The notes under the pieces were generated by a model. It was not told the DNA's origin, searched no databases, and worked only from the letters and a program-made list of their open reading frames with translations. Positions 7,383 through 33,247 of a stretch of DNA of 44,266 nt are shown here, in pieces. The stretch is from Oscillospiraceae bacterium (lineage in GTDB: Bacteria > Bacillota > Clostridia > Oscillospirales > Oscillospiraceae), in the NCBI GenBank assembly GCA_017465745.1, contig JAFTVM010000071.1:1-44266 (forward strand), written 5' to 3'. The translations under genes were made by a program, and so were the position numbers. How positions within the stretch are numbered: position 1 is the first letter of the stretch; every line of letters starts with the position of its first letter.

Positions 7383-7384
7383 GG

Positions 7385-12867: not shown

Positions 12868-12920
12868 AAAACTCCTCCCCGATTGTCCGGATAGCCGGCG
12901 TGGGGAGGAGTTTTTATTTT
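12868..12920. terminator. Bidirectional terminator between phage-like module and GGDEF gene
   Basis: AAAACTCCTCCCC and GGGGAGGAGTTTTT form a stem of 10 GC-rich pairs flanked by A and T runs on both sides. It serves the plus-strand module (followed by TTTTTATTTTT) and, read the other way, the minus-strand GGDEF gene, whose stop codon lies inside the T tract. Confidence 0.88.
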
Positions 12921-15653: not shown

Positions 15654-15747
15654 TGATAAAACCTCCAGTGAAATATTCAATGGAAAAGGGGCGTGGAAGC
15701 ATCCATTTTCCGGGAAAAGGCGCGGTTATGTAAGAAACGGATCACCG

Positions 15748-16536
15748 TTAAAACAGACCCAGATACCAGCCCACCACGGCATCGCCGCAGAGCATGGTGA
15801 TGACGGCCGCCAGGGACAGGGCGGGGCCGAAGGGGAAGGGGGTGTCGGGGGAGACGCGCATCATGACGGAAGCCATGAAGATACCCACGACGCAGGCGAT
15901 CATGACCATCAGCATACATGCGGGCAGGGACAGGAACATGCCGATGACGAACAGCAGCTTGATGTCGCCGCCGCCCATAGTCTCCTTTTTCAGGACCTTG
16001 TCCATGATGAGGCTGAGGATCAGGACGCTGCCTGCAATGATCAGACCGGGCAGCGCGCCGGAGAACAGACCCCGGATGCCGCCTGTAAGCAGCAGCTCCA
16101 CAGCCCGGACGGCGATGGGAATGATGATGAAGCGGTCGGGGATGATCTGGGTGTCCAGGTCCACCAGGCTCAGCGTGAACAGGCAGCTTGCGAAGATCAG
16201 GGGGGTGATCAGCTGCGCGGTCAGGCCAAATTTCAGCAGCAGGCAGACATAGATGACGGCCAGGGCTGCCTCGGTGAGGGGATAGCGCGCAGAAACGGGG
16301 GCCTTGCAGTAGCGGCACTTGCCGCCCAGGGCCAGCCAGCTGAACAGGGGAATGAGATCCAGGGCGGAGAGGGTATGGCCGCAGGCGGGGCAGGCGGAGC
16401 GGGAATTGCCGGACCACTTCTTGCCGGAGCTAAGACGCAGCGCCAGACAGTTCAGGGCGGAGCCCATGACAAGGCCCAGGATGGCGAACAGGAAAATGAG
16501 ATAGGCGACTATGTAAGGGGGATATAATTCAAGCAT
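15748..16536 (-). CDS. pilD: Prepilin peptidase / N-methyltransferase PilD
   Basis: This 262-residue polytopic aspartyl protease of the TFPP family has the N-terminal methyltransferase-type domain with the four zinc cysteines (Cys49, 52, 74, 77). The catalytic aspartates lie in LVDLDTQIIPD (about 126-128) and in the GGGD motif (Asp191). It cleaves the leader from class III prepilins and methylates the new N-terminus. Its substrates here would be the two major pilins, the minor pilins and the giant pilin-like protein. The gene sits directly after the second pilin gene, 12 bases from its stop. Confidence 0.93.
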   Translation of the reverse strand: MLELYPPYIVAYLIFLFAILGLVMGSALNCLALRLSSGKKWSGNSRSACPACGHTLSALDLIPLFSWLALGGKCRYCKAPVSARYPLTEAALAVIYVCLLLKFGLTAQLITPLIFASCLFTLSLVDLDTQIIPDRFIIIPIAVRAVELLLTGGIRGLFSGALPGLIIAGSVLILSLIMDKVLKKETMGGGDIKLLFVIGMFLSLPACMLMVMIACVVGIFMASVMMRVSPDTPFPFGPALSLAAVITMLCGDAVVGWYLGLF

Positions 16537-16548
16537 TGGATGGTTCCT

Positions 16549-16995
16549 TTAGGGTGTAATAGGAGCGTTAATGGTGTACCAGGTACCGCTGGGGATTTCG
16601 GGCTTTGCTGTACCAATCGTGGCAAGATTAGGAGAATGTGATCCATTCGTGGCAAGCTCAGACAGATAATCGAAGCCATAGTAGGTATTATCGTTCACAT
16701 AGTAGACCTGAATGAATCCGGGGGCGTCAAAGACGGCGCAGATGACGGCTTCGGGATCCATTCTGCTGGTGGGATTGGAAGTTGCATTGAGAACTTCCTG
16801 AATCGTCTTCTCACCGTTCAGTACATGGATGTTCAGTTCAGCATAAACAGCACGTAAGTTAGCCGCGTCAGCCGCCGCCTTGGCTTTAGCAGTAGAATTG
16901 CCAACCACAGGAATCACAACGGCCACCAGGATGGCGATAATGGCAATGACTACAAGCATCTCAATGAGCGTAAACCCCTTTTTATTACGGTGCAT
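16549..16995 (-). CDS. Type IV major-pilin-like protein (second copy)
   Basis: A 148-residue prepilin: MHRNKKG then the mature start FTLIEMLVVIAIIAILVAVV with Glu5. The first 50 mature residues are almost identical to those of the upstream pilin, whereas the C-terminal domain is unrelated in sequence, with a single cysteine (ICAVF) and a Tyr/Asn-rich patch. The start is the ATG with GAGGAA upstream; the longer in-frame extension is not needed. The C-terminus lacks an obvious D-loop disulfide pair. It may be an alternative subunit or a low-abundance pilin. Confidence 0.9.
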   Translation of the reverse strand: MHRNKKGFTLIEMLVVIAIIAILVAVVIPVVGNSTAKAKAAADAANLRAVYAELNIHVLNGEKTIQEVLNATSNPTSRMDPEAVICAVFDAPGFIQVYYVNDNTYYGFDYLSELATNGSHSPNLATIGTAKPEIPSGTWYTINAPITP

Positions 16996-17149: not shown

Positions 17150-17578
17150 TTAGGTGTCGGAGTGCACAGTCACGGTAGCACCGGGAACAATGGTCTTGCC
17201 ATCGTTAGTACCACCAGTAATGGTGATCTTAACGTTATTGCAGGTGCCACAGTGTTCGACCTTAACGCTGGTTGCGCCTTCAAAAGCAGCCAGAGGGAAG
17301 CCGCCGATATCGGTCATCTCGCTCTTGCCAGAGGCATCCTGGAAGGAATTGAATGGACCAGTCTGGGACAGAGTAACATTGACAGGAGTAGCGGTGCCAG
17401 TCAGAGCAGTGGTGGTAACCTCAGCGATAGCAGCACGGATGTTGGCAGCGTCCTTGGCTTCCTTAGCCTTCTCGGTGGAGTTGCCGACGACGGGGATGAC
17501 GATGGCGACCAGGATAGCGATGATGGCGATGACGACCAGCATCTCGATCAGGGTGAAGCCCTTCTTGTTCATCTTCAT
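17150..17578 (-). CDS. pilA: Type IV major pilin
   Basis: This 142-residue prepilin starts MKMNKKG, cleaved before FTLIEMLVVIAIIAILVAIV, with Glu5 and the usual hydrophobic helix. A short alpha-helical spine (GNSTEKAKEAKDAAN) leads into a small beta-rich globular domain containing a CGTC pair that could form a tight disulfide. The ATG at 17578 is chosen because AGAGG lies 10 bases upstream; the longer frame is not a plausible leader. It is the first pilin after pilC and is followed by a stable hairpin, so it is the likely major subunit. Confidence 0.92.
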   Translation of the reverse strand: MKMNKKGFTLIEMLVVIAIIAILVAIVIPVVGNSTEKAKEAKDAANIRAAIAEVTTTALTGTATPVNVTLSQTGPFNSFQDASGKSEMTDIGGFPLAAFEGATSVKVEHCGTCNNVKITITGGTNDGKTIVPGATVTVHSDT

Positions 17579-17666: not shown

Positions 17667-18884
17667 TCAGTACATGCTGAAAATGGGCAGGTACACGGAC
17701 AGCAGAATGAACACAACGATGGCAGCCAGCACCATGGTGATGGCGGGGTTCAGGATCTCCAGGGCACGCTTGACGGCCACGTCCACTTCCTTGGTGTAGT
17801 ACTCGGAAACCACGTTCAGGGTGTCCTCCAGCTTGCCGGTCTCCTCACCGACGGTGACCATTTCTTTCAGCAGGGTGGGGAACCACTTGCTGTTTTTCAG
17901 ACCGTCGGAAAGGCGGTTGCCCTCGATAACACCGGCGGTGGCCTGCTCGATATCCTCCGCGATCAGAAGATTGTCGGCGGTGTTGGCGGTGATGCGGGCG
18001 GCGCTGACCAGGGGAAGGCCGGAGGCCAGCATGGTGGACAGGGTGGAGGCGAACTGGGAAGCGGCGTTCATTCTGTTGATCATATCAACGCCGGGGAACG
18101 TCAGGAAAAGACGGGCGTACAGGTGCTTGCCGGAATCGGACTTGCCGTAGAAGAACAGGCCCAGAACGACAGCGGCGATGATGGCGATCAGCAGCAGAAT
18201 ATTGTCCACCATGAAATTACTCATGGCGATCAGCATCTTGGTGGGCAGGGGAAGCTCATTGCCCTGCTGGGCAAAGCTCTTCTCGAAGACGGGCACAGCC
18301 ACCAGCATGATGATGGCAACGACGATCACGGCCACGGACAGCAGCATGGCGGGATAGACCATAGCGGAACCGACCTTGGAACTGACGGCGTCGGCATTCT
18401 CGTAATATTTCTGGAGCCGTTGGAAGGTATCGTCCAGCTTACCGGACTCTTCACCGGCGCGCAGCGTCTCGATGAAGGTACGGGGCAGGCCGGGACCCCG
18501 GGCGGCAAAGGAATCCGCCAGACCGTTACCGGCGTGGACATCGTCGGCAACCTCAGTGAGGATGCGCTTGATCTTCTTGTCCTCTTCATTCTCGGCCACC
18601 AGCCGCAGGGAGGAGACCAGAGGAAGACCCGCCCGCAGCTCAATGCCAAGCTGGCTGCACAGCAGCGCCAGGGTCTTGGGCTTGATCTTGCCGCCGGAGA
18701 ACAGGTCACCGATGTCGGCATTCATGATGTCGTTCAGCTTGCCGCCGGAAACCGGCTCCACGCTGATCAGCACACGGCAGTTCTCCTTGGCACGGGCGAC
18801 AGCGTCCTGCTGGTCGAACGCCTCCACAACGCCCTCAACATTGGCGCCGCTGGAGGTCATGCCTTTATAGCGATATGTAGTCAT
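17667..18884 (-). CDS. pilC: Type IV pilus inner-membrane core protein PilC
   Basis: A 405-residue GspF/PilC-family protein. It starts with a short basic domain (MTTYRYKGMTSSGANVEGVV), then two GspF repeats (about 65-190 and 270-395), each with the conserved LRAGEESGKLDDTF or VGEETGKLEDTL signature, and three membrane helices. PilC sits in the membrane at the centre of the assembly machine and is rotated by PilB and PilT. The start has AAGGGGG. The gene lies between pilT and pilA, the standard order. Confidence 0.93.
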   Translation of the reverse strand: MTTYRYKGMTSSGANVEGVVEAFDQQDAVARAKENCRVLISVEPVSGGKLNDIMNADIGDLFSGGKIKPKTLALLCSQLGIELRAGLPLVSSLRLVAENEEDKKIKRILTEVADDVHAGNGLADSFAARGPGLPRTFIETLRAGEESGKLDDTFQRLQKYYENADAVSSKVGSAMVYPAMLLSVAVIVVAIIMLVAVPVFEKSFAQQGNELPLPTKMLIAMSNFMVDNILLLIAIIAAVVLGLFFYGKSDSGKHLYARLFLTFPGVDMINRMNAASQFASTLSTMLASGLPLVSAARITANTADNLLIAEDIEQATAGVIEGNRLSDGLKNSKWFPTLLKEMVTVGEETGKLEDTLNVVSEYYTKEVDVAVKRALEILNPAITMVLAAIVVFILLSVYLPIFSMY

Positions 18885-18896
18885 GGTTTACCCCCT

Positions 18897-19958
18897 TTAG
18901 AAGAGTGTGGAACGGCGCACATAGTCGGCGTCATGGGCATGCTTGATGGCACAGTCACTGGAGATCTTGCGCTGACGGTAGAGGGTAATCAGGGAGGAGT
19001 CCATCAGATGGTTGCCCTCTGCGCCGGATGTGGCGATGGCATTGGAGATCTGGGGGGTCTTGCCCTCGCGGATCAGGTTGCGGATGGCGGGCGTTGCGGT
19101 CATGACCTCGGTGGCCAGAACACGGCCGCGGCCGCTGGCATGGGGAAGCAGCTGCTGGCAGACAACTGCCTGCAGGCACATGCTCAGCTGCATGCGGATC
19201 TGTGCCTGCTGCTCGGCGGGGAACACCTCCACGATGCGGTCCACCGTATCGGCTGCGGAATTGGTGTGCAGGGTGGCAAACACCAGATGGCCAGTCTCAG
19301 CGGCGATCAGGGCAGTTTCGATGGTGGACAGGGAACGCATCTCGCCGATCAGAATGACGTCGGGATCCTCGCGGAGGATGGATTTCAGACCGTCGGAGTA
19401 GGAGCGGGTATCCTGGCCCACCTCGCGCTGGTTGATGATGCACTGGTCGGGGGTGTAGAGGTACTCAATGGGGTCTTCCAGGGTGATGATATGCTTGCCC
19501 TGGGTGTGGTTGATCTTGTCCAGCAGGCAGGCCAGGGTGGTGGACTTGCCGGAGCCGGTCTCGCCGGTGACCAGGACGATGCCCTGGTTGAAATCAGTGA
19601 ATCCTCCGATCTGGGCGGGCAGGCCCAGTTCCTCAAAAGCGGGAATGTGGTTGTTCAGAATGCGGATGGCAGCGGACACATAGCCCTGCTGCCGGAACAG
19701 GTTCACGCGGCAGCGGGTGCCGTCGGCAAATCCGACAGCCAGATCCTGCTCGCCGATGTGGGCGATATCGGAATAATGGGGGGACAGATCCTGGGCGTAG
19801 GACTCGCAGTCCTCGGGCGTCATGATATTGGTGTCCAGATTATGCAGCTTGCCGTCCACACGGACGCGGATGGGAATGCCGCAGACAATGTGGATATCGC
19901 TGGCGCGCAGGCGCTGGGCTTTGGTGATGATCTCGTCCAGAGTGAGGATCTTGCTCAT
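18897..19958 (-). CDS. pilT: Pilus retraction ATPase PilT
   Basis: This 353-residue secretion ATPase has Walker A GETGSGKST (132-140), the Asp-box ITLEDPIEY, the Walker B region VILIGEMR (Glu206), a His-box around TGHLVFATLHTN, and the PilT-specific AIRNLIREGK at 291-300. PilT powers pilus depolymerisation, hence twitching motility or DNA uptake. Its presence shows that these pili are retractable. It follows pilB by 32 bases. Confidence 0.94.
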   Translation of the reverse strand: MSKILTLDEIITKAQRLRASDIHIVCGIPIRVRVDGKLHNLDTNIMTPEDCESYAQDLSPHYSDIAHIGEQDLAVGFADGTRCRVNLFRQQGYVSAAIRILNNHIPAFEELGLPAQIGGFTDFNQGIVLVTGETGSGKSTTLACLLDKINHTQGKHIITLEDPIEYLYTPDQCIINQREVGQDTRSYSDGLKSILREDPDVILIGEMRSLSTIETALIAAETGHLVFATLHTNSAADTVDRIVEVFPAEQQAQIRMQLSMCLQAVVCQQLLPHASGRGRVLATEVMTATPAIRNLIREGKTPQISNAIATSGAEGNHLMDSSLITLYRQRKISSDCAIKHAHDADYVRRSTLF

Positions 19959-19990: not shown

Positions 19991-21691
19991 TTAGATATCG
20001 GTGGAATTGACGGTGCGGTAGGCCTCCTCCACGGTGGTGGTGCCATTCTGCACCAGCCGGACACAGTCCACGATCAGCGGCTCAAAATCGCTCTCACGGA
20101 TCAGCTCCTGGAGCTGGCTGTGGGGGACGTTGTCCGCAATGGCATGGCGGACGGCAGAATTGAGGACCAGGATCTCGAATACGGCGGTTCTGCCGCGGTA
20201 GCCGGTGCCGAAGCACATGGGGCAGCCCTTGCCGCGGTAGAAGCGTCGGCCGGCCTGGACGGGCAGGCGCAGCATCTGCTGCTCTTCGGCGGAGGGGGTG
20301 TACTCCGTGCGGCAGTTGGGACAGATCCGGCGCACCAGACGCTGGGAAATGATGCCCTTCAGGGCAGAAGAGATCAGGAAGCTTTCCACGCCCATGTCCA
20401 GCAGACGGTCAATGGTGCTGGGGGCGTCGTTGGTATGCAGGGTGGACAGCACCAGGTGGCCGGTGATGGCGGCGCGCATGGCGATGTCGGCGGTCTCGCC
20501 GTCACGGATCTCACCGACGGCGATGATGTCCGGGTCCTGACGCAGGATGGAGCGCAGGCCGGAGGCAAAGGTCATGCCGGTCTTTTCATTGATCTGAACC
20601 TGGTTGACGCCGTCGAAATTATATTCCACGGGGTCCTCAAGGGTAACCAGGTTGACCTGCTCGGTGTTGAGCTTGCCGATCATGGTGTACATGGAAGAGG
20701 ATTTGCCGGAGCCGGTGGGGCCGACGATCAGGATAACGCCGTTGGAATTTTCCAGCAGGGCGTTGAACTTTGCCAGGTTCTTGCCCACCAGGCCGATGCC
20801 CTTGGTATTCAGCAGGGAGCTGGATTTGTTCAGCAGACGGATAACCACCTTCTCACCGTAGACAGTGGGCAGGGTGGAGATACGCAGGTCCACGTCCTTT
20901 TCGCCGATGCGGACATTGCTTCGGCCGTCCAGGGGAATCTTGTGCTCGGCGATGTTCATGTTGCCCATGACCTTGATACGGGCAATGACCGCACTCTGGG
21001 TATTCTTAGGGACCACAAAAACCTGGCGCAGGACGCCGTCGATGCGCATGCGTACATACATGGCGCTTTCCCGGGGCTCCAGATGGATATCGGAGCAGTT
21101 CTGGTTGACAGCGTACTCCAGGAAGCTGTTGACCAGACGGATGGTGGGGGCGGCATTTTCGGAATCGGCGCCGATGACATTGGCGGCGGCGATATTCTGG
21201 AAATCTGTGGTTGTCTCATCCTCGTTGCTCTTCAGATCCTGCAGGGCCTTCTCTGCGGATTCGGAGCCGTAGAGGTCGGTGATGGTGCGGGTAATGGCTT
21301 CCGCCGTGGCCAGCATGGGGACGACCTTGCGCTTAACGATCATGCGCACGGCATCAGTAGCGACGAAATTCAGGGGGTCTGCCATGGCCAGGGACAGGGA
21401 ATCCTGGGTGGCCTGGACAGGAACGACATTATATTTCCGGGCGATGGACCGGGGGACGAGACGGGTCATTTCCTTGGGGATGACCATGCCGGTCAGATCC
21501 ACAAATTCCACGCCGAGCTGGCGCTCCAGCGCCTTGTAAACTCTGCGCTGGGTGGTGAAGCCCTGCTCCACAAGGATCTCGCCCAGCTTCTTTCCGGTGG
21601 ACTTTTTCTGGATCTCCAGAGCCTTGTTCAGTTGTTCGGGGGTAATGTATTCGTTGGCGATCAGCATTTCGCCGAGGCGCTTGTAAACCAT
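19991..21691 (-). CDS. pilB: Pilus extension ATPase PilB with MshEN domain
   Basis: A 566-residue GspE/PilB ATPase. The N-terminus carries two tandem 24-residue MshEN-type motifs (residues 5-28 starting RLGEML, and 35-58 starting KLGEIL, both ending in Q), the known c-di-GMP-binding module. The motor has Walker A GPTGSGKS (324-331), Walker B DIIAVGEIRD (388-397), and a zinc site of Cys457, Cys460, Cys490 and Cys493. It drives pilus polymerisation. It is the first gene of the minus-strand pil operon. The ATG has GGAG eight bases upstream. Confidence 0.94.
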   Translation of the reverse strand: MVYKRLGEMLIANEYITPEQLNKALEIQKKSTGKKLGEILVEQGFTTQRRVYKALERQLGVEFVDLTGMVIPKEMTRLVPRSIARKYNVVPVQATQDSLSLAMADPLNFVATDAVRMIVKRKVVPMLATAEAITRTITDLYGSESAEKALQDLKSNEDETTTDFQNIAAANVIGADSENAAPTIRLVNSFLEYAVNQNCSDIHLEPRESAMYVRMRIDGVLRQVFVVPKNTQSAVIARIKVMGNMNIAEHKIPLDGRSNVRIGEKDVDLRISTLPTVYGEKVVIRLLNKSSSLLNTKGIGLVGKNLAKFNALLENSNGVILIVGPTGSGKSSSMYTMIGKLNTEQVNLVTLEDPVEYNFDGVNQVQINEKTGMTFASGLRSILRQDPDIIAVGEIRDGETADIAMRAAITGHLVLSTLHTNDAPSTIDRLLDMGVESFLISSALKGIISQRLVRRICPNCRTEYTPSAEEQQMLRLPVQAGRRFYRGKGCPMCFGTGYRGRTAVFEILVLNSAVRHAIADNVPHSQLQELIRESDFEPLIVDCVRLVQNGTTTVEEAYRTVNSTDI

Positions 21692-21950: not shown

Positions 21951-22052
21951 ATTACTATCTGTAGTTATGGGGTTTTATATCCACATGGCATATTGGATGC
22001 CACAATCCCACGAAATCAGTCATATTATATATTGAGAAAGGGCATGACCGTA

Positions 22053-25000
22053 ATGAGGAAACGTCTGATCGAAAGAATAGCAAAACCAACAAGAAGGTCC
22101 CGGGGCTATACGCTGACGGAAATGCTGGCGGTTGTCGGCATTATCGTGGCGCTGATCGCCATTGCGATCCCGTCCGTGATTGCAATCAGCAACGCGCTGC
22201 GCTTCGCCCAGGCCAACAACTATGCCAAGAGTATCTTCCTGGCAGCACAGCAGAACCTGACAGAGATGCGCTCCGACGGCGGCCTGGCACCCCTGCAGGG
22301 AGTCAGCTCTGACGAGCGTCTGATCGATTCAGGACACTGCGGCTTCCCGGATGAGGACTGGTCTGACGAATACGTCTATACAGCCTCCCGGCTCAATGAC
22401 CTCACCAGTTACAATCTGGTTCTGCCGGTCAACAGTGTAGAAGCCACGATCCGCGATCAGCAGGTGATCATCGAGTACAACCCCATCACGGGCAATGTCT
22501 ACTCTGTTTTCTACTGTGACAAGGCAGAGGAGAACATTCTCAGTGATTATATCGATGACAAGCTGCCCCGTGACAAGGGCGACCGTAAGAAGCGCATGAT
22601 CGGCTACTATGCCGGTTCGGGCCTGTCCAGTTCCGAACTGGAAGTGGAACACGCCGCTTCCTCCATTGAATTCACCAATGGCGAAGAGGGTATCGTCACC
22701 GTGAAGATCGCGATGCCAGACCTGTACATCGGCTCCTATTCCGAATTCGCCAAGGGTCTGTCTGTCAAGCTGACCATTGCCAGTGCCATGACGGACGGTT
22801 CTGCGGGAACATTCCAGGTGCAGATCAAGGAAGCCGGAGAAGACGGCGGCAACTGCGCGCTGGATACGGACGGCAGAACGGTGTTGATCACCTACGCGCT
22901 GGACTCCCTGGCTGACAAGCGCAGCTTTGCCAACCTGTCTGCCGGTATTGCCGATCTGGGCGCTGAGGCAGTGGCTCTGGACAACAGCCTGACCCCTGCG
23001 GCCCTGACCACCCTGACGGATGTATCTAAGTTTGCCATTCTGCCCGGTGAGAACATCTCCATCGAGGCGGATATCGACTTCGAGGCCGAAGCTGGCCGTC
23101 CCGCCGTGACAGTGGACAAGGCAAATCTGGATGGCGTCAACCCCATGTTTGAGTATTTGGAAGAGATCGCCCCCGGTGAGTTTGTTCTGGCGGTTTCCAA
23201 CGGCCGCAACCTGCAGAACCTGAATGCCATCGCGCCTTCCGTGGCGGATCTGGTGGATACTGTGATCTTTACGGATGATATCTACTGGAACAAGACCGTT
23301 GACTACTATAATGGTAAGTATAAGGGCGCCGAGGAAAGCTACGCCAACAGCGCTGACGAGGCGCCTGCCCGCGCCCTGCCCTACTTTGTTCCCATTCATA
23401 ACGAGAACCTGTTCGGTACTGCCAAGTTCATCTATATGGATGGCTCCTATGATGAGCTGAGCCTTCTGGAACAGATCCTGAGTGCGCTGATCGGCTCCAA
23501 CTATCAGCGCAGCGAACGTGTCCCTACCTTGACCGATGAGCTGGACAGCCAAAAGAATGCAAACGGTGAAGAGATCGCCACCACCCACGCCATCATCGAC
23601 GGCGGCGACCATAAAGTCTTCTTCCTGAATGTGGACTCCACCAGATACCAGGTTCCCGCCAACGGCAAGTTCTATGCCACCGGTACCTACCAGGTCATTG
23701 ACTACTATTTTACCGGCCTGTTCGGCTATGTAAATACCACCGTCAGCAATCTGCACGTGGTCAACCCCATCATCAAGGGCCATGATTTTGCTGATGTTGT
23801 TACGACCAATACTTCCACCTATACCGACCCTGCGACCGGTGCGCTGATCGGTGCCGGCGGCTACAACACCCTGGTCACCAATTGCTCCGTCTATCTGGAT
23901 ACCAAGATTCAGGGCTTCAACTGGAGTTATGCTGACCACGGCTCCCATCAGGCACAGACGGATTATTCCAAGACAGCTGATCAGACCTGGTACGGCGTCA
24001 GCGGACAGGGTGCTGTCGGCGGCCTGGTGGGCTATGCAAAGTCCCACCGCACCACCAACGGCGTCATTGACGGCGACCTGGCCCATCTGGCCTTTGCCGA
24101 CTGCTTCGCAGCCGTGCCTGTCAGCGGCACCATGCGTGGTATTGTGACGGACTACGACAATAATTCCTCTCCGGACAAGGATTTCGGTTACTCCAACGGT
24201 GTCGGTGGCTTCATCGGCAACTCCCAGCTGACCAATTTCTATAAATGCTACGCCAGCGGCAATGTCCGCGTGTCCAACACCTACGCCAAGTCCAGCGGTT
24301 CCTCCGACGATATCACGACCTATCTGGGGCTGGGCGGTAACGGCAGACTGAGTATGGGCGGCGGCGGCTTCGTCGGCACCAGCCACGGTACCCGCTACAC
24401 CAACTGCTTCGCCTCCGGCAGCGTCAAGAACATCACCGACACCACTGCCACCGGCGGCTTCGTGGGTATGATGTGCTATGACGAGACCAAGGCTTACGGC
24501 CATCAGGCTTCCGGTACCAGCTCCGAAAAGGTGGCGCAGCGCACCGTCTTTGAGAACTGCTACAGCATTGGCATGTGCCTGGACAGCAGCGGATACTTCC
24601 TGGAGAACTTCTCCGGTACCAACGGCAAGATCGATGTCAACTACGGTACGCTGAAGGCCTACTACAGCGCAGATTACTACAGACTCTATGCGCCCTATCA
24701 GGTTATGGAGGGCAAGGATCCCAAATATCAGACCTATTACATCTTCAAGGACAGCTACTATCTGAGCCAGTACAGCAACAACAAGAAGGTCAAGCAGCAT
24801 TCCTCCAACAAGTGTGCCAACCCCATCGGTTATTCTGACCTGATCGATCTGCATGTGAAGTACGATACCGCTACCTGGATCTCCAATGAAGATCCCGAGG
24901 GTCAGATCGAACTGCTGAAGAACTATAACCTGGATGCTTCGGTTATCGAAGCAGTGTATGGTATGGTGAGAGATCTGATTTCTGATTACTTTAAGAACGG

Positions 25001-28000
25001 TTCTTCTTTGAGCGATATTTTGAATGATCTAAAGCTTATCTATGAAATCATCGATAACGCCCGGTCTACATACCAGTTCTACTTCGATCTGTATGAGTTT
25101 ATGCAGGAGCGCGGAATCAGGAGCAAGGATAAAACACTGGAGGATCTTTATTTCAGCCGCTATGCCGAAGGCTTCCCCTCTGACGTTTGGCATAATGCCA
25201 CTGAGGGCAGCACCCATTATTACGGCGAAGTGACCACCGGCATGGTGTATCCCTTCCCGAAGCTGAACAGTATGGATTACTACGGCACCTGGCAGGAGCC
25301 TCCTCTGGCCGGCGGTCTGGCTTACTATGAGACCTACCAGAGCGGTACGACCAAGACCGATGGTTATTATTTCGACCGTGCTGAGACTTCCAACCTGAAC
25401 AGTGATGATGATACCGTCATTGTGGCTGACGGCTATGCAGTTTTCAGCGGAACAAAAGATGACACCATCTATGTGTACGCAGAAAATGGTACCACGCCTC
25501 TGGCAGGTCCGCTGGAGCCTGAGCCCAACGGCATTACCCTGACTTCCGCTACCAGCCCCGACGACAGCTCCTACTATGTCACCAAGCTGCCCACGCTCAC
25601 GGTGGGGGCAGGCAACAGCGGTAAGAGTTACTATGGCGCCATCAAGATCGTCGTCGTGCTCGGTGATAAGTCTGAGGAATTCTGGGCCCTGTACAATCCC
25701 AACACCGCCATCTCCCAGATCAACAAGGTGGAAGTCAACAGCGGCGCCGTTTCCTATCCCGCAAATCCCGATACCATTCTGATCCGTACTGCCCGTCAGT
25801 TTGCTTCCATGAACGCTGCGTCCGTGAAGAACGTCTGGGGCAAGGATTACACCTTTATCCAGCAGTTGAATCTGGACGCATCCACCTATAACTGGGGAAC
25901 AGGCAAAACTGCTCCCGTTGTCAACGGCATTGGTACGGACGAGGCTCCCTTCAATGCTACCTATACCAGCATCGGCGGCTACGTCGAAAAGCCCGCCATC
26001 ATCGGCCTGCCCACCACCAGCGGCTACTTCGGCAACATCGGCTCTGACGGCCTGATCTCCACGCTGAACATTCAGCTGGACGGTGGAGAGGATGGTATCA
26101 CCATCGGCACCGAGGAAACCAAATACGCCGGTCTGCTTGCCGCTGTCAGCAGCGGCAGCATCGAAGATGTGGATATTCTGCTCGATGGCAAGATTACTGT
26201 GAACGCTGTCAACGGTGCGGGTCTCCTGGCAGGTAAGGTGTCCGGCGTCAAGGTGACGGATACTGCCACCGGTGAAGAGACAACTTCCGCTGTCATCACG
26301 GACTGCGATATCGGCCTCGTCCTCGATAAGACCGGCGCGTCCAATGGCGATGTGGCTGTCAATGCATCCAATGCGGGCACCGGCGTGGGTGAACTGCTGG
26401 GCGCCAGTGTCAGCAACTGCTCCATGACATTTGTCAACCCCATCACCACCACCGCAACAAACTTCGGCGGCTTTGCCGGCCAGGCAGAGAATCTGACCGC
26501 CGATATGATCCCCGCCATGTTCAAGGGCCTGACTGCTGAGGCTGCCAATGCCGGCGGCTTCGCGGGTAGCCTGAAGGGCGGTAAGGTTACCAACCTGACC
26601 CTGTTCCTCGAGGGTGATTTCGAAAACACGGTCGATGAAGAAAGCACTGTCGAAGACACTGTGATTGCCGGCGCAGCCGCAGTCGTCGACAGTACTGAAC
26701 TGCAGAATGTCAACGTGAATCTGAAGGGCAGCATGACTGCAGACAGTGCAGCCGGCGTTTTCGGCAAGGCTTCCAACGCTGTTGTTGATAATTCCGGTAT
26801 TACTGTCACCGGGGGATCCATCAACGGTACCACTGCCGCAGCCGGTATGGCACTGGATATCAATGTCGGCAGCTTCAGCAGTACGTCTGTCTCCCTTCAG
26901 GACGCTGCCATCACCGCCGACGACACTTCCGGCCGTGCAGCGGGTTACGCTGTTACGGTGAGCGGCACCGTAAAAAATGGCTCCGTCGTTATGGGCGGCT
27001 ACACCTATAACAAGAAGCTGGATACAAACAACAAGCTTGTCAATGTATCCTTTGCTGGACCTACATGCGCTGCACAGATTTCCGGCGGTGCGGATGCCGC
27101 AGGCTTTGCCTGTGAGATCAGCAATGATATCACCGATTCCAAGGTTGCGGGTATGGGTACCATTACCTCCGCCGGCAACGCCGCAGGCTTTGCCGCGACG
27201 ATCAGCGACAAGGGCATCCTGATCAGCGGCAACGGCGTCACTCCCGCGCTGGTCAATACCTCCGCCGATTACCGCTATAACAGCAATGACAACCTGACCA
27301 TCACAGGCGCCAATGCAGCAGGCTTTGCCGTGAATGTGGGTCAGAATGTCAGCCTGAACAACTGCTACGCCCTGGGCAAGATTGTCGGCGTTTCCAATGG
27401 AACCACTGCACCCGTCATTGCGGGCTTCGCAGTCAACAACGCCGGTACCATCAACGGCGCAAGCGCCAACGTCACCATCGACGGCGGCAGTGCATTCATT
27501 GCAGGTAACTCCGGCACCGTGGTCAACAGCTACGGCTGGTACGGCAACGGCAGCACCTCCACCACCGACAATGTGACCACCGCCGAGATCAGTAATTCCG
27601 GCGCAGGCAAGGTCACCAGTGCATACTTTGTCGATCTGGATGTGCCTGTGGATGACACCTGCACCAGTGCTGTGCTGTATAATGCCGATGGCGTCATGAA
27701 TCAGACCAGCCCTGTGAATCTGACCATGGATGCCCTGAACGGCAAGAACGGCACCAGATGGTTTGCCGGCGGCGTGTACGATGCCTACTCCTACTCCAAG
27801 ATGAGCACCGGTTATGTCTATCCCATGCTCCGTGCCCATTACGGCAACTGGGCAAATCCGCCCCAGTACGCATTCGGCGTGGCCTATTACGAGCAGTATC
27901 AGGACGGCACATGGAAGATCATGGTCCATGACCTGTCCGATCCCAGCCAGACGGTGGAAAAGAAGCAGGTGAGCAGCAGCGATGAGTTCAATGAAGAAGG

Positions 28001-31000
28001 AATCATCAAGGATGCCGGCTACGCGCTGTTTTACAAGGCGGTGTCCGCACCTGTAAAGGTTACCGGCGCTACCATTGGAGACGTGCTTCCCATTCTTACC
28101 ACTTCTCTGAATTCTGATATTGTCTACAGCTTCCACAAGCTGGTTCCCACGCAGTCCACCGTTACTGTCACGGAGATCCTGGTCAATCCCGAACCCGGCG
28201 ATGCGGCAACATCCGTCACCATTGGTGCAGACTATGCCCTTGAGTTCGGTTCCGTGAACACCCATGTGATCCGTACCGAAGATCAGCTGGCAAAGGTCAC
28301 CAACAGCGGCAGCTACAGCCAGACCCATGACATTACGTTGACCAAGAACTTTGCCACCATTAAAAACTTTGCCGGTACTTATGCAGGCAACGACTACGCT
28401 CTGAATGCATCCGCAGCTGCCAACGGCTGGATGAACGGTGTTGCCTCTGATGGTTCTGTCAGCAATCTGAATCTGACCTTGGGCAATATCAATGCTTCCG
28501 CCTTCGGCGCAGTCAGCGGCAGCGTCCAGCTGGACAGCCTGACTGTCGGCAATATCGGCAGCAGCGGCAGTATTGCCACCACTGTCAACAATTTCACTGT
28601 TGACAAGATTGTCACCACCGGAAATGTGGAAGGCTCCATCTTCGATACCATCAGCGGTACGGTGACCCTGAGCAAGGGCCTGACCATCAATGGCAATGTT
28701 ACTTCCGCCAACGGTGCCATCGGCACTGTCAGCGGTACTCTCAATTGCAGCAATATCACCGTCAACGGTGACATCAGCGGCAAACTGATCGGCAGCATCA
28801 ATGCATCCACAGACAAAACTCTATCCATCACCGCTGCTACGGTCAGCAGCACCGGTACTGTGATCGGCACGGTGGCGGCTGATTCTGATATCGCGTTCTC
28901 CCTGAGCAATACAGAGAAAGCGCTTGACGGCGTTATTGTTGGCACAGTCGATGGTAAGAAGCTGAATCTGTGCAACCTGAACCTGGGCGACCTCGGTACC
29001 AATGCACGGCTCGTCAATGAAGTGAAGGGAAGCGCTGAGTTGAATCTTGGCGCCATCACTGTCGGTGATGTGGCTGGCAGTCTGGTCAATACCATTTCCG
29101 CAGGTGCGGTCAATGCTGATTCTATCACCACAAACGATGTTTCCGGCAGCTTGTTCGGTACGGTCAGTGGCGATGTGACCGTCGGTGGAATCAATGCCGC
29201 AGCAGTCACAAAGCCCCTGATCACGAGCCTCAATTCCGGCACTGTCACCACCGGCAATATTACCATGACCTCCCGTTCTCAGCCTCTGGTCGGCACGTTC
29301 GCCGGCGGCACTCTGCAGGGTGCTGCGCCTGCGGAGGATACCCTCAATCAGGCTGCCCTCATGGTCAATGACGGTAACGATTCCATCGCTGCTGTCCTGT
29401 TCGCCGGCGACGTTGACGGTATGGTCAGAAATTATTCCATTGCCTCCGCGGGCCTGAATGCAAATCTCGTGGCGAACCTTGACGGCTTTATGACCGATGT
29501 CACTGTGAATGTGACCGGCGATGCCTCTGCAAATGTCGTCGCTAAGCTGAACGGCGAACTGAGCGGTACGGCCATTGGAGTCGCCGGAAAGATGACCGCA
29601 AGCGCCATTGGTACCACCGGCTCCGGTGCTGTGCTGAGCGGTGTCAGTGTTACCACCGGCAGTGCGGACTTCACCAACAGCGAAAGTGCCATTGGCGGCG
29701 TTCTGGTTGCTGCGAATAAGACCTCCATCACCGATTGCAGCGTGACCGCCGGTACGGTCGCTGTGAAGGCATCCGGCAATTTTGGTGTCATCGCGGATCA
29801 GATTCCTTCCGGCGAGACCCTGTCCGGTACCAACGCGATGGTGAACACCCTGAACATTACCCTGAGCGGCGACGCCAATGTCGGTGGTCTGGTGGGCACC
29901 AACAACGGTGCGATCTCCGGCAGCGCGCTGACCAACAAGGACGGCGGCAACGCACAGGTCAATCTGACCGGCGCAGATGACACGACGCTCGTGTTCGGCG
30001 GTCTGGCTGGCATCAACACCGGCGTCAAGACCGATTCCGTTAACGCAGGTATTACCAGCAACGGCAAGACCATGCTGAATGTTGCCTATACGCAGACTGC
30101 TTCCGACAAGGCCATCATCGGTGGTCTGGTTGGTGCAAACAGTGGTACCATCACCGGTACAGGCAGCACGACCGCAACCGACGTATCCGGCATCATCAAC
30201 CTGGTTGCAATCGATGCATCCGGCGAGATCAACCAGACCGGAACCGGTGCGGACAGAGTTTACGTCATCGGCGGCGCAGTTGGTAAGATGACCGGCGGCA
30301 CCGTCAGCAATGTCTACGTCAATGTTTCCGTCGATACTGATTGGATGAATGCCCAAAAGACTGATACGGTTAGCGGCAATACCTTCAACGTGACCAGCGA
30401 GGACAAGGGCCCTGTCGGTATGTTCGTCGGATATGCCTCTACTGGTACTTTTACAAGCTGTTACAATAACCACAAAAATAACGACACGTACCAGTTTATT
30501 GGACAGGCAGGCGTTGCAAAGAACGCTCTGAGCAATACCTGGGCTTCTCTGGGAGATGTTGACCAGAAGACCGTTTATGGTGATAGCTTCAATACGGAGG
30601 ACAACACGTATACAGTTGATGGCTTTACTGTGTACCCCGCAGAATTTTATCTCTCTGTTGTCCCGGCCTTTAACGGTTGTTATTTCTATTATCAAAATGA
30701 AACAACAATCAAAGAGCAGATGGTAGGCTATGATGAGTATTTCTACTCCGTAAGTGAGCACTCTGGAAGCGTATTCTCTGCTGGTAGTGCTTTCACCGGC
30801 AAATTTGATCCTTATACTCTTTCTGTTAATAGTAGCCAATCTTATTCTGATAAAAACTACTATTACAACATTCCCAACACCGATCAATACGGCAAGATAA
30901 CAAGAATTGTATATTCCGAGGAACGTGAATTGTTCTGGTATAGATATAAAGCCACCCTGTATTACATGGATGAAACTAATACGGAAACGTCCATTGATCC

Positions 31001-31418
31001 CAAGGAAGATACGGGCTTTAGAAAGAAGACCTTCACCTTCGACATCTATACTCTGAATAGTGAATTGACAGCAAACGGGAAATATTTCCTCAGTACCGGA
31101 AATATGACTGTTGGTGAAAATGGAAGCATCGAACTTCCGTCTGAGTTTAAGCCTTACGAGGAAATCTACAAGAATGTTTTCACGTATAACGGTTCTCAGC
31201 TTACTGCCACTTCCTCCTATGATGTTGCCGCTGTTCTGTCGAATTTCTACTCCGTTAAGGAACCGGAACTGAAGTTTACTGCCGGCACTTTCAAATATGG
31301 AGATGTCACGGAATTCAGTCTGCTTCCTGTCACAGAAAACGGAAAGACGTATCTGGAGTATACATTCAATCATCTGGACGACGTAAAGTATGAACGTCAG
31401 TACGTAACCTACAAATAA
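22053..31418 (+). CDS. Giant type IV pilin-like adhesin with beta-helix body
   Basis: This 3121-residue protein begins with an 18-residue basic leader ending RRSRG, then YTLTEMLAVVGIIVALIAIA with Glu5, a textbook class III prepilin N-terminus recognised by PilD. The body is far beyond normal pilins. Residues about 650-810 contain GLUG-type repeats (GGLVGYAKSH, GGFIGNSQLT, GGFVGTSHGT). About 955-1036 is a helical insert. Long Gly/Ala/Thr/Asn-rich beta-helix stretches occupy about 1250-1916 and 2083-2763, separated by a duplicated module. The last 300 residues are Tyr-rich, different in composition and unrecognised. There is no LPxTG and no C-terminal membrane anchor. The start is tentatively the ATG at 22053, with GAAAGG about 10 bases upstream; an ATG at 22044 is possible. 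It heads an operon with three minor pilins. Inference: a pilus-tip or surface adhesin displayed by the pilus machine. Confidence 0.9.
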   Translation: MRKRLIERIAKPTRRSRGYTLTEMLAVVGIIVALIAIAIPSVIAISNALRFAQANNYAKSIFLAAQQNLTEMRSDGGLAPLQGVSSDERLIDSGHCGFPDEDWSDEYVYTASRLNDLTSYNLVLPVNSVEATIRDQQVIIEYNPITGNVYSVFYCDKAEENILSDYIDDKLPRDKGDRKKRMIGYYAGSGLSSSELEVEHAASSIEFTNGEEGIVTVKIAMPDLYIGSYSEFAKGLSVKLTIASAMTDGSAGTFQVQIKEAGEDGGNCALDTDGRTVLITYALDSLADKRSFANLSAGIADLGAEAVALDNSLTPAALTTLTDVSKFAILPGENISIEADIDFEAEAGRPAVTVDKANLDGVNPMFEYLEEIAPGEFVLAVSNGRNLQNLNAIAPSVADLVDTVIFTDDIYWNKTVDYYNGKYKGAEESYANSADEAPARALPYFVPIHNENLFGTAKFIYMDGSYDELSLLEQILSALIGSNYQRSERVPTLTDELDSQKNANGEEIATTHAIIDGGDHKVFFLNVDSTRYQVPANGKFYATGTYQVIDYYFTGLFGYVNTTVSNLHVVNPIIKGHDFADVVTTNTSTYTDPATGALIGAGGYNTLVTNCSVYLDTKIQGFNWSYADHGSHQAQTDYSKTADQTWYGVSGQGAVGGLVGYAKSHRTTNGVIDGDLAHLAFADCFAAVPVSGTMRGIVTDYDNNSSPDKDFGYSNGVGGFIGNSQLTNFYKCYASGNVRVSNTYAKSSGSSDDITTYLGLGGNGRLSMGGGGFVGTSHGTRYTNCFASGSVKNITDTTATGGFVGMMCYDETKAYGHQASGTSSEKVAQRTVFENCYSIGMCLDSSGYFLENFSGTNGKIDVNYGTLKAYYSADYYRLYAPYQVMEGKDPKYQTYYIFKDSYYLSQYSNNKKVKQHSSNKCANPIGYSDLIDLHVKYDTATWISNEDPEGQIELLKNYNLDASVIEAVYGMVRDLISDYFKNGSSLSDILNDLKLIYEIIDNARSTYQFYFDLYEFMQERGIRSKDKTLEDLYFSRYAEGFPSDVWHNATEGSTHYYGEVTTGMVYPFPKLNSMDYYGTWQEPPLAGGLAYYETYQSGTTKTDGYYFDRAETSNLNSDDDTVIVADGYAVFSGTKDDTIYVYAENGTTPLAGPLEPEPNGITLTSATSPDDSSYYVTKLPTLTVGAGNSGKSYYGAIKIVVVLGDKSEEFWALYNPNTAISQINKVEVNSGAVSYPANPDTILIRTARQFASMNAASVKNVWGKDYTFIQQLNLDASTYNWGTGKTAPVVNGIGTDEAPFNATYTSIGGYVEKPAIIGLPTTSGYFGNIGSDGLISTLNIQLDGGEDGITIGTEETKYAGLLAAVSSGSIEDVDILLDGKITVNAVNGAGLLAGKVSGVKVTDTATGEETTSAVITDCDIGLVLDKTGASNGDVAVNASNAGTGVGELLGASVSNCSMTFVNPITTTATNFGGFAGQAENLTADMIPAMFKGLTAEAANAGGFAGSLKGGKVTNLTLFLEGDFENTVDEESTVEDTVIAGAAAVVDSTELQNVNVNLKGSMTADSAAGVFGKASNAVVDNSGITVTGGSINGTTAAAGMALDINVGSFSSTSVSLQDAAITADDTSGRAAGYAVTVSGTVKNGSVVMGGYTYNKKLDTNNKLVNVSFAGPTCAAQISGGADAAGFACEISNDITDSKVAGMGTITSAGNAAGFAATISDKGILISGNGVTPALVNTSADYRYNSNDNLTITGANAAGFAVNVGQNVSLNNCYALGKIVGVSNGTTAPVIAGFAVNNAGTINGASANVTIDGGSAFIAGNSGTVVNSYGWYGNGSTSTTDNVTTAEISNSGAGKVTSAYFVDLDVPVDDTCTSAVLYNADGVMNQTSPVNLTMDALNGKNGTRWFAGGVYDAYSYSKMSTGYVYPMLRAHYGNWANPPQYAFGVAYYEQYQDGTWKIMVHDLSDPSQTVEKKQVSSSDEFNEEGIIKDAGYALFYKAVSAPVKVTGATIGDVLPILTTSLNSDIVYSFHKLVPTQSTVTVTEILVNPEPGDAATSVTIGADYALEFGSVNTHVIRTEDQLAKVTNSGSYSQTHDITLTKNFATIKNFAGTYAGNDYALNASAAANGWMNGVASDGSVSNLNLTLGNINASAFGAVSGSVQLDSLTVGNIGSSGSIATTVNNFTVDKIVTTGNVEGSIFDTISGTVTLSKGLTINGNVTSANGAIGTVSGTLNCSNITVNGDISGKLIGSINASTDKTLSITAATVSSTGTVIGTVAADSDIAFSLSNTEKALDGVIVGTVDGKKLNLCNLNLGDLGTNARLVNEVKGSAELNLGAITVGDVAGSLVNTISAGAVNADSITTNDVSGSLFGTVSGDVTVGGINAAAVTKPLITSLNSGTVTTGNITMTSRSQPLVGTFAGGTLQGAAPAEDTLNQAALMVNDGNDSIAAVLFAGDVDGMVRNYSIASAGLNANLVANLDGFMTDVTVNVTGDASANVVAKLNGELSGTAIGVAGKMTASAIGTTGSGAVLSGVSVTTGSADFTNSESAIGGVLVAANKTSITDCSVTAGTVAVKASGNFGVIADQIPSGETLSGTNAMVNTLNITLSGDANVGGLVGTNNGAISGSALTNKDGGNAQVNLTGADDTTLVFGGLAGINTGVKTDSVNAGITSNGKTMLNVAYTQTASDKAIIGGLVGANSGTITGTGSTTATDVSGIINLVAIDASGEINQTGTGADRVYVIGGAVGKMTGGTVSNVYVNVSVDTDWMNAQKTDTVSGNTFNVTSEDKGPVGMFVGYASTGTFTSCYNNHKNNDTYQFIGQAGVAKNALSNTWASLGDVDQKTVYGDSFNTEDNTYTVDGFTVYPAEFYLSVVPAFNGCYFYYQNETTIKEQMVGYDEYFYSVSEHSGSVFSAGSAFTGKFDPYTLSVNSSQSYSDKNYYYNIPNTDQYGKITRIVYSEERELFWYRYKATLYYMDETNTETSIDPKEDTGFRKKTFTFDIYTLNSELTANGKYFLSTGNMTVGENGSIELPSEFKPYEEIYKNVFTYNGSQLTATSSYDVAAVLSNFYSVKEPELKFTAGTFKYGDVTEFSLLPVTENGKTYLEYTFNHLDDVKYERQYVTYK
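25236..25800 (+). repeat. Internal module, copy 1, of the giant pilin
   Basis: Encodes TGMVYPFPKL, YYGTWQEPPLAGGLAYYE, then ADGYAVF and ILIRTARQFASM. The same series recurs about 2570 bases later with substitutions, so the protein is built from duplicated beta-helix-plus-module units. Confidence 0.7.
27808..28300 (+). repeat. Internal module, copy 2, of the giant pilin
   Basis: Encodes TGYVYPMLRAHYGNWANPP, GVAYYEQYQDGTWK, then DAGYALF and HVIRTEDQLAKV, matching copy 1 in order and spacing at the protein level. The two copies have diverged at the DNA level. Confidence 0.7.
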
Positions 31419-31434: not shown

Positions 31435-32292
31435 ATGAATTCCATCGTCAACAAACTTCGCTCCAAATCCGGTGCATCCATGCTGATTGCGATCGTGTTC
31501 ATGATGTTCTGCCTTTTCGTTGGCGGTGCCGTCCTCGCGGCGGCATCCGCCAACGGATACCGGGTCAAGCATCTGTCCGACCAACAGGACTTCCTGAATC
31601 AGCGCTCCGCCTGTCAGCTTCTGGCCGACGAGATCGATGGAGCCGGGACTGTCAAGGCAAAGCTGACCGTTAGCGACATCGATATCCGCTACGATCCCAT
31701 TACGGTCCTCGCCAACGGCAGCAAGGTTCCCGACACGAGCCGTTCCACCATCCTGGATCACGCGATCACCTTTTCCGCCCAGTTTACGGAAACAAACACC
31801 ATGTCAGCTGTCCAGAGGATCATGTATGAGACTGCGGTTCTGCGTTACCTGGCAGAAAATGAGATTGATCTGGGGGACTCCGCCCTTACTGTGAAGCTGG
31901 AGGGCTTCTACTATGGCCCCAAGGTGGGCGAAGCATCCAATGCCTTTGGTTTGGGTGATTTCTGGTGCAAAAACAGCACGGGCTATGTCACGGAGGGTTC
32001 CATCGATATCTATGGCATTCCTGCCGCCGATGGAGCCGCGTCCGACAGCTTTACTGCCAGCTTCGCCTCCGGAACCGGCAACCGGCTGTATGATTTCTGT
32101 ATCGGCTTCGGCGCGTATACCCAGATGACTGTCTCTGCCAATGCCTATACCAGTGAACTTTCGGTCGGTCCCATCACAGCAACGGAGAATCTCACTGTTA
32201 ATTCGGTCAGCGGTGACTGGGATGTCACCAAGCTGAGCAACAGAATCACGATCTCCTGGGATCCTGCCTACATCGAAAAAGGAGGTGCATAA
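31435..32292 (+). CDS. GspK/PilX-like minor pilin
   Basis: A 285-residue protein with leader MNSIVNKLRSKSG, cleaved before ASMLIAIVFMMFCLFVGG. Position 5 of the mature chain is Ile, not Glu. Loss of Glu5 is characteristic of GspK-type tip pilins, which sit first in the fibre and cannot dock under another subunit. The long globular region after the helix also fits GspK/PilX rather than a major pilin. AAGGAG precedes the ATG, 17 bases after the giant pilin stop. I do not recognise a specific globular domain. Confidence 0.78.
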   Translation: MNSIVNKLRSKSGASMLIAIVFMMFCLFVGGAVLAAASANGYRVKHLSDQQDFLNQRSACQLLADEIDGAGTVKAKLTVSDIDIRYDPITVLANGSKVPDTSRSTILDHAITFSAQFTETNTMSAVQRIMYETAVLRYLAENEIDLGDSALTVKLEGFYYGPKVGEASNAFGLGDFWCKNSTGYVTEGSIDIYGIPAADGAASDSFTASFASGTGNRLYDFCIGFGAYTQMTVSANAYTSELSVGPITATENLTVNSVSGDWDVTKLSNRITISWDPAYIEKGGA

Positions 32293-32294
32293 GC

Positions 32295-32633
32295 ATGAAG
32301 CGAATCTTACGAAAGATTTTATCCAGAAAGGGCGAAAGCCTGGTTGAAACCCTGTGCGCCGTCCTGATCTTTACCCTTGCTTCCGTCGCTATGTACTCCA
32401 TGATTATGGCTGCCGGTAACATTAACGACACGGCCAAGACCGTTGACCGGCAGGTGCAGAGCCAGATGCTGGTCGCAGAAAAGGCAGAGGGCGACGGCAT
32501 AGAGCAGACCCTCACGATGAAGATCACGCCGAAGGGCGGCTCCGCACTCAGTGAGACCATCCCCGTTGAGGTCGAGCTCTATCAGGCGGAGGACAATGGC
32601 TTGTTCTCCTACTTCAGAAGCACAGGAGGCTGA
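32295..32633 (+). CDS. GspI/PilV-like minor pilin
   Basis: This 112-residue prepilin has leader MKRILRKILSRKG, cleaved before ESLVETLCAVLIFTLASVAM, with Glu5 present. The first mature residue is Glu instead of Phe, which is uncommon but seen in minor pilins. The short size and the SLVE start are typical of GspI/PilV. GGAGGT precedes the start. The gene is tightly packed between the GspK-like and GspJ-like genes. Confidence 0.8.
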   Translation: MKRILRKILSRKGESLVETLCAVLIFTLASVAMYSMIMAAGNINDTAKTVDRQVQSQMLVAEKAEGDGIEQTLTMKITPKGGSALSETIPVEVELYQAEDNGLFSYFRSTGG

Positions 32634-32635
32634 GC

Positions 32636-33247
32636 ATGAAGAGAATGAATGCGGGTTTTACCCTGATCGAAATGCTGGCCGTTCTGGTGGTTCTGGTCAT
32701 CCTTGTGGCCGGTATGGGCGCAACGATGAATACGGGTATGCTGATTTATAATGAGGCCGTTTTTGAGTCCGACAGCGCATCCATGGCCGGAATCCTGAAC
32801 ACAGCGCTGGGCGATATCCTGCGATACAGCGTGGATATCGAGATCAACGAGGGTACTGCTGCAAATCCGGAGGATGCCTTTGTGGACGCTTCCGGCAGCT
32901 ATATCCTGAAGGATGATGTCGGTTTCGTTTTTACCAGTGTCGAATACGGTATCCGTGACGCCTATTTCCATATCCCTTACGAGCAGGGAAATAAGGCCCG
33001 CGGCGTCCTGCAGATGCGGAATCTGGTAAACTCGGATATCGTGGAGCTTGTCAATATCGGCGCTTACCCCGATCTGATGGTCAATGATTTTGAGATCACC
33101 TATGTGGCACCCGGCGCCCCCGATTCCAATGGCAATCCCCTGCGCGGCGGTTACTTCGAAATCAGCTACGAGATTCTTAGCAAATCCAACCCCCAGCTGA
33201 AGCGGGAAGTGGAGACCGTTGTCCGGCTGATCAATATCTCCGAATAA
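32636..33247 (+). CDS. GspJ/PilW-like minor pilin
   Basis: A 203-residue prepilin with leader MKRMNAG, cleaved before FTLIEMLAVLVVLVILVAGM, with Glu5. The globular part is of GspJ/PilW size. AGGAGG lies just before the ATG. It is the last gene of the giant-pilin operon, followed by a hairpin. Together with the two genes upstream it forms a set equivalent to GspI-J-K, the known tip complex of type II and type IV systems. Confidence 0.82.
   Translation: MKRMNAGFTLIEMLAVLVVLVILVAGMGATMNTGMLIYNEAVFESDSASMAGILNTALGDILRYSVDIEINEGTAANPEDAFVDASGSYILKDDVGFVFTSVEYGIRDAYFHIPYEQGNKARGVLQMRNLVNSDIVELVNIGAYPDLMVNDFEITYVAPGAPDSNGNPLRGGYFEISYEILSKSNPQLKREVETVVRLINISE

Follow-up and report, generated by a model that had tools for sequence, protein, structure and literature searches.

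A giant modular type IV prepilin encoded next to a pilus operon in an Oscillospiraceae bacterium

Introduction

Modular pilins have been described in print, and the most extreme multi-domain case quoted in one published account has 860 residues (PMC8179133). The same account already names a pilin architecture, IPR012902-IPR011493, and gives a length of 454 residues for the processed PilB of Streptococcus sanguinis (PMC8179133). A beta-solenoid pilin, ComZ of Thermus thermophilus, has been solved and was argued to be located at the tip and to act as a DNA receptor (PMC6561018). In the HIJK scheme of minor pilins, H connects IJK to the major pilin (PMC10191384, PMC9934059), and PilC/PilY1 is described as absent in monoderms (PMC9934059).

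Here, we analysed a stretch of 44,266 nucleotides from an Oscillospiraceae bacterium (contig JAFTVM010000071.1, referred to as the window), in which a prepilin of approximately 20 times the usual size of a pilus subunit is encoded next to the genes of a type IV pilus machine and followed by minor pilin genes.

Results

The giant reading frame and its prepilin N-terminus

The giant reading frame was open from the TTG at 21993 to the stop at 31418 and contained 3121 residues when counted from the ATG at 22053. Because the probability of a stop-free run of 3121 codons at the base composition of this gene was approximately 5e-57, the frame cannot be a product of chance. The features recognised in and around it are as follows.

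22034..22042, plus strand: RBS-like GAGAAAGGG, 10 nt upstream of ATG 22053, picked out by eye
22053..31418, plus strand: giant modular prepilin P0001, 3121 residues, from the intact ORF and the family alignment
22053..22106, plus strand: prepilin leader of 18 residues ending in Gly, with the predicted (inferred) PilD cut before Tyr19
22107..22637, plus strand: pilin module spanning roughly residues 19-195, with the signature IF.AAQ..L ... IEYN...G.VY.VFY ... GYY.G
22638..23411, plus strand: second conserved region, about residues 196-453, from BLAST among giants and a profile
23670..24542, plus strand: first region likely to form a beta-solenoid, GLUG-like motifs at 596, 656, 718, 771 and 801 (residue numbers)
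25248..25964, plus strand: conserved domain, about residues 1066-1304, starting YPFPKL..YYGTW, from BLAST among giants

The N-terminus comprises the charged leader MRKRLIERIAKPTRRSRG with Gly at -1 and, after the predicted cut, YTLTEMLAVVGIIVALIAIAIPSVIAI, which begins with Tyr1, has Glu5 and continues as a hydrophobic helix; in this mature numbering Tyr19 is residue 1 and residue 23 is Glu5. In the genome search Pfam N_methyl reached 23.4 bits, over its cut-off of 21.2, and in the whole-protein scan it fell short with 16.2 bits; NCBIfam TIGR02532 scored 14.8 against 16.3. As N_methyl straddled its cut-off between the two scans, the prepilin call from the giant alone was marginal. The genome search listed four N_methyl matches, all on the contig of the window: the giant itself, the two operon pilins and, 3' of the giant, the third gene.

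The identity of the N-terminus was settled by the family. In an alignment of 29 giants, chosen from 30 that had all been prefiltered for a Gly/Ala plus Glu5 motif, Glu5 was present in 29 and Gly-1 in 28 rows at a mean column identity of 26%. The aligned giants shared the signature ELD..AR.IF.AAQN.L ... IEY...G.VY.VFY ... GYYGG, of which the window giant has a divergent version. Among the 41 giants found by profile, Glu5 occurred in all 41 and Gly-1 in 38, the remainder having Ala, and none lacked the motif; this profile includes the prepilin motif and its finds are therefore biased toward motif-bearing proteins. The profile of the N-terminal helix matched solved type IV pilins with a best E value of 6e-12. 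Thus, the conserved Glu5 and Gly-1 together with the match to solved pilins bear out the proposal of the initial annotation that a true type IV prepilin N-terminus heads an intact ORF of 3121 residues. No LPxTG-like motif was found in the last 60 residues, nor any second hydrophobic or membrane-like segment, in 71 giants (some cut and two counted twice), which leaves the pilin helix as the sole anchor seen in these proteins.

The body of the giant

GLUG-like motifs were noticed in the window giant at residues 596-801, 1472-1501 and 2611-2740, and a short internal repeat at residues 1914-1993. Pfam GLUG, which we take to be the same as IPR011493, was above the cut-off in three of four relatives scanned and was not found in the window giant, for which only N_methyl was listed at E values up to 1. 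The family-wide profile of the first body section matched the GLUG beta-helix of M26 IgA1 protease (E 1e-9 to 1e-7; PDB 7jgj, 6xjb, 6xja and 3n6z). Profiles built narrowly on either the first or the second body section gave no PDB match, and the periodogram of hydrophobic residues over the window body revealed no convincing solenoid period, the lowest p among the 20 segments being 0.03 in a single one. The first body section is therefore probably a beta-solenoid, as judged from GLUG in relatives and the IgA1 protease match, and to this extent the earlier description of the body as a beta-helix held; a beta-helix over the whole body is a guess since the narrow profiles had no PDB match and no fixed period was seen. 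Beyond the pilin module, the family carries an extra domain, as modular pilins do, to judge from GLUG in relatives and the IgA1 protease profile match. The HExxH zinc site was absent from the window giant and present in only 1 of 71 giants, which makes peptidase activity unlikely.

The divergent pilus operon and the minor pilin genes

The minus strand, divergently from the giant, encodes pilB-T-C-pilin-pilin-D-M-N-O, followed by a GGDEF cyclase.

19991..21691, minus strand: PilB extension ATPase, named by reading the sequence and from relatives
18897..19958, minus strand: PilT retraction ATPase, named by reading the sequence and from relatives
17667..18884, minus strand: PilC platform protein, named by reading the sequence and from relatives
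17150..17572, minus strand: pilin, probable major pilin, N_methyl-type profile matches
16549..16989, minus strand: pilin, probable second major pilin, N_methyl-type profile matches
15748..16536, minus strand: PilD prepilin peptidase, A24_N and Peptidase_A24
14667..15680, minus strand: PilM, profile matches
14065..14652, minus strand: PilN-like, match under the cut-off, relatives at the equivalent place
13505..14062, minus strand: PilO/GspM-like, match under the cut-off, relatives at the equivalent place
12914..13450, minus strand: GGDEF diguanylate cyclase, apparently the final gene of the pil operon

The cyclase closing the operon hints at control of the pilus by c-di-GMP. The Rfam scan of the window returned nothing at threshold, and so no c-di-GMP riboswitch was seen; the upstream promoter scan gave one site, which is about the chance expectation.

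On the plus strand, three prepilin-like genes were found 3' of the giant with gaps of 16, 2 and 2 nt, and this spacing suggests that the minor pilin genes form an operon.

31435..32292, plus strand: K-like minor prepilin, leader Gly followed by ASMLI, without Glu5, no Pfam match
32295..32633, plus strand: I-like minor prepilin, leader Gly followed by ESLVE
32636..33247, plus strand: J-like minor prepilin, leader Gly followed by FTLIE, N_methyl above the cut-off

The K, I and J labels rest on gene order, leader type and mutual similarity. Pfam gave no match for the K-like or the I-like protein, the I-like protein had a sub-cut-off match to gspJ, and the K profile found nothing better than E 0.15 in PDB. 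Glu5 was missing in 20 of 20 K-like proteins, as it is in K (PMC9934059). The initial annotation had the giant encoded divergently from a pilus operon and followed by minor pilins, and both statements agree with the gene order found here.

Elsewhere in the window, two ORFs of 268 and 375 residues at 10783-12716 (plus strand) had a phage-structural look by eye, and their sole match was one weak PHROG hit of the 268-residue ORF in the function unknown category. The proteins encoded at 6483-10010 (minus strand) resemble phosphotransferases and nucleotidyltransferases, with matches of the GntI/thiK and sugar-nucleotidyltransferase types that all stayed below the cut-off, and possibly belong to a choline or cell-surface sugar pathway.

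Relatives of the giant across the order and beyond

A search with the first 246 residues of the giant gave matches in 72 of the 394 Oscillospirales genomes, own genome included, many of them only via the motif of ordinary pilins. Open frames of at least 700 residues were found at 33 places in 28 of the 394 genomes and fell into nine families, with a range of 732-5261 residues. Within its own genus the giant system is rare; N_methyl was detected in 19 of 121 genomes and an N_methyl frame of more than 1000 residues in three of the 121, the next longest having 712. At E 1e-16, only 24 of 392 genomes of the class sample and 8 of 398 of the phylum sample matched, counts that include the own genome and ordinary pilins, and the giant family is on this ground uncommon.

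Stretches were fetched for 30 giants including that of the window; they cover 28 of the 33 places, and two giants (G005 and G020) came from a separate search. The pil machinery was present inside the fetched stretch for 23 of the 30 giants, and of the genomes of the remaining seven, six had a T2SSE ATPase elsewhere; genome G336 has a giant and an ATPase match only below the cut-off. The longest relative (L056, G261:C14) is an open frame of 5261 residues directly 3' of pilD-M-N-O, and two more giants lie on other contigs of genome G261. As regards the earlier suggestion to look for similar pilin-fused proteins near GspI-J-K-like genes, a family with giants beside K-, I- and J-like genes was found, and the window giant is a member of it and not a one-off.

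Shorter forms were also found. In G717 and G664 (L189 and L190), a stand-alone pilin module of about 190 residues ends soon after G[FY]YG and adjoins a K-like gene; TGA recoding in these two genomes was considered and rejected, as a true stop closes a short pilin module. A pilin-module protein of 363 residues occurs in G908, and pilin-module frames of 678 and 676 residues in G841 and G533. Since relatives of about 190 and 363 residues exist, along with an open frame of 552 in Gordonibacter pamelaeae, the giant body is not obligatory, and the short forms argue for the module being an independent pilin onto which bodies were added.

At two loci (L024:1-9837 and L072:1-10104), the modular pilin is short, with 731 and 737 residues, respectively, and a second giant ORF lies about 64-80 bp 3' of it. 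These second ORFs have at least 2526 and at least 2603 residues, contain Listeria-Bacteroides repeats and have an N-terminus that looks Sec-like by eye, and the pair is perhaps a two-gene version of the giant. A further ORF of at least 3333 residues with a Sec-exported look by eye was seen 3' of a second K/I-like gene pair (L087:2-10000 with L059, G354).

PilB-anchored scan of pilus loci

The window PilB was used as bait in named genome records, independently of the giants. A PilB relative was found in 388 stretches, and the best 80 of these were analysed. The pilin module was present in 41 of the best 80 PilB loci, at 124-198 bits, and the body that carried it never had fewer than 740 residues; of these giants, 33 were complete (757-3205 residues, median 1381) and eight were cut. 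The next match to the pilin module was a locus-edge fragment of 73 bits from G. pamelaeae, and the others had at most 54 bits and 382 residues. As 33 of the 39 giant-less loci have less than 9.9 kb on one or both sides of PilB, absence of a giant can be claimed for about five loci, the sixth being that of G. pamelaeae. The 41 giant loci contained PilT in 40, PilC in 39 and PilD, PilM, PilN and PilO in 33 each; a K-like gene was recognised in 31, an I-like in 22 and a J-like in 13, these being fast-diverging genes at loci of which many are cut.

Hosts not titled as metagenome-assembled genomes were Oscillibacter valericigenes An890, [Clostridium] asparagiforme DSM 15981, Clostridium sp. MCC353, Lachnospiraceae NSJ-143, Paraeggerthella hongkongensis, Enteroscipio rubneri and Gordonibacter sp. 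28C, so that isolates of both Bacillota and Actinomycetota are represented. The open frames in these seven genomes have 1319-2656 residues and that of G. pamelaeae 552; the giant of O. valericigenes An890 (L102) is complete with 1794 residues. Gordonibacter and Paraeggerthella belong to the Eggerthellaceae of the Actinomycetota, as presumably does Enteroscipio, and the giant family therefore spans two phyla. At least two giants are shared between the collections, since L090 is the same contig as G005 and L092 the same as G020.

Linkage and co-divergence with the pilus machine

Of the 69 giants, which include at least one duplicate, 53 had a same-strand homologue of K, I or J in their stretch, and in 30 of these it lay at -100 to +150 nt. 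The giant does not keep to one fixed side of the K-I-J genes among the loci. The pairwise distances of the pilin module and of PilB at the 41 loci were strongly correlated (Mantel r 0.87), and none of 2000 permutations was as high, the best being 0.20. Between the window and its closest relative L088, PilB is 82%, PilT 79%, PilC 70%, PilM 57% and PilO 47% identical, whereas the giant has 33% identity over the best BLAST segment. In bins of 200 residues, 601-800 was the most conserved part of the giant (58%), and from 2001 on identity was 23-34%. The low identity of the giant compared with that of PilB would fit what is expected of a surface effector.

Discussion

These results are best explained by display via the pilus machine. 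The giant is probably a modular type IV pilin that is cut by PilD and borne by the pilus as an effector that binds surfaces, its most likely site being the tip complex; this reading fits best because the cleavage site is conserved, no other anchor was seen, the neighbours are K-, I- and J-like and the module co-diverges with PilB. The Sec pathway would insert the protein via its pilin helix, and PilD would remove the 18-residue leader at the conserved site. The pilin module would then join the K-, I- and J-like minor pilins in the priming or tip complex of a PilB/PilT-driven pilus, where it may occupy the place of H, and the body, of which at least some would be a GLUG beta-solenoid, would be held beyond the cell wall as a fast-evolving binding effector. 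The giant alone may in this way do what diderms do with minor pilins and PilY1, and its size would not be limited by a gate, as there is no outer-membrane secretin to pass.

It is rather unlikely that the giant, once processed by PilD, is retained in the membrane or distributed over the shaft of the pilus instead of the tip, with the pilus genes mainly processing it and pushing it out. Such a protein would have the same conserved prepilin site and pilus linkage, a location in the filament body is considered possible where the linker is flexible (PMC8179133), and the giant is not confined to one side of the K-I-J genes. The close pairing with K-, I- and J-like pilins speaks for the tip, since their namesakes form the tip complex in type IV pili and type II secretion systems, in the schemes given by PMC10191384 and PMC9934059, and bodies of thousands of residues at many positions of the shaft would be expected to clash.

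The machines of type II secretion and type IV pili are almost identical (PMC10191384), and the minor pilins found here resemble GspI, GspJ and GspK in layout. A type II secretion-like device with the giant as pseudopilin or secreted cargo, and not as a displayed adhesin, is all the same very improbable, as a secretin was found in none of the 29 giant-bearing genomes (6 of 14 control genomes were positive), and as the presence of PilT in the window and at 40 of the 41 PilB loci with a giant indicates a retractile pilus; in the 30 fetched stretches of the order, which are partial, PilT was seen in 14. That the N-terminus is an ordinary signal anchor with a chance likeness to prepilins, and that Sec exports the protein with no involvement of the pilus genes, is scarcely credible, for the marginal N_methyl and TIGR02532 scores of the window giant are outweighed by the family-wide Glu5 and Gly-1, the match to solved pilins, the linkage and the co-divergence with PilB.

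With the modular tip pilin as the preferred reading, we tentatively raise the possibility that many gut clostridia and Eggerthellaceae have such giants as a standard component of their type IV pili, where they would take the place of H together with the work of PilY1 as a tip solenoid of tens of nm, and where the absence of a secretin would permit subunits of 2000-5000 residues. If the reading is true, the oversized subunits beside the pilus genes of many gut bacteria suggest very large binding proteins on retractable hairs, and gut anaerobes would have a concrete effector for holding on to, and pulling at, mucus, fibre or neighbours. This would be a conserved, fast-evolving giant on a retractable pilus, available in growable isolates such as O. 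valericigenes An890; the known size of pilus subunits would rise from hundreds to thousands of residues, and the secretin as a size limit in diderms would become testable.

At the level of search listings, the open-licence literature showed no pilin from gut clostridia that is thousands of residues long, and the scale, the family and the K-I-J-like operon were likewise not found in open-licence papers. The initial annotation had regarded the locus as the best candidate for an undescribed system, which is overstated in principle, as modular pilins (PMC8179133) and the beta-solenoid tip pilin ComZ (PMC6561018) figure in these published accounts. The principle of the modular pilin is known, and what appears to be new is the scale, the family and the K-I-J-like operon.

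Like PilB and PilC of S. sanguinis, the giant has a prepilin N-terminus and a pilin module with a binding module grafted C-terminally, in a monoderm; both systems have an operon of minor pilins and two pilins in the main operon, which in S. sanguinis are two major pilins. They differ in size, the 454 residues of S. sanguinis PilB standing against 3121 in the window giant and open frames of up to 5261 in relatives; in the body, which is GLUG-solenoid-like here and vWA or lectin there; and in the partners, which are K-, I- and J-like here and PilA/B/C there. In S. sanguinis, the proposed role of tip effector falls to two modular pilins of about 50 kDa. The architecture IPR012902-IPR011493 shares the pair of pilin and GLUG with the giant family (GLUG in three of four relatives); in PMC8179133 it figures as a mere architecture with a predicted peptidase module, whereas peptidase activity of the giants is unlikely. 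The likeness to M26 IgA1 protease is limited to the beta-helix section, and the zinc protease motif is absent from the window giant.

PilY1 is a separate, non-pilin protein, whereas the giant is a pilin. PF05567 (PilC/PilY1) was not found in the window giant, for which N_methyl alone was listed at E up to 1, and the PilY1 model was silent in all 29 giant-bearing genomes and also in the control, which makes this count uninformative. ComZ differs from the giant in having a solenoid of about 380 residues inserted in the pilin framework and a host with an outer membrane. The locus shares with the HIJK minor pilins and their PilC/PilY1 a set of minor pilin genes, one of them K-like and without Glu5; it departs from that scheme in that the K-, I- and J-like genes have a giant pilin as neighbour, which may fill the H position.
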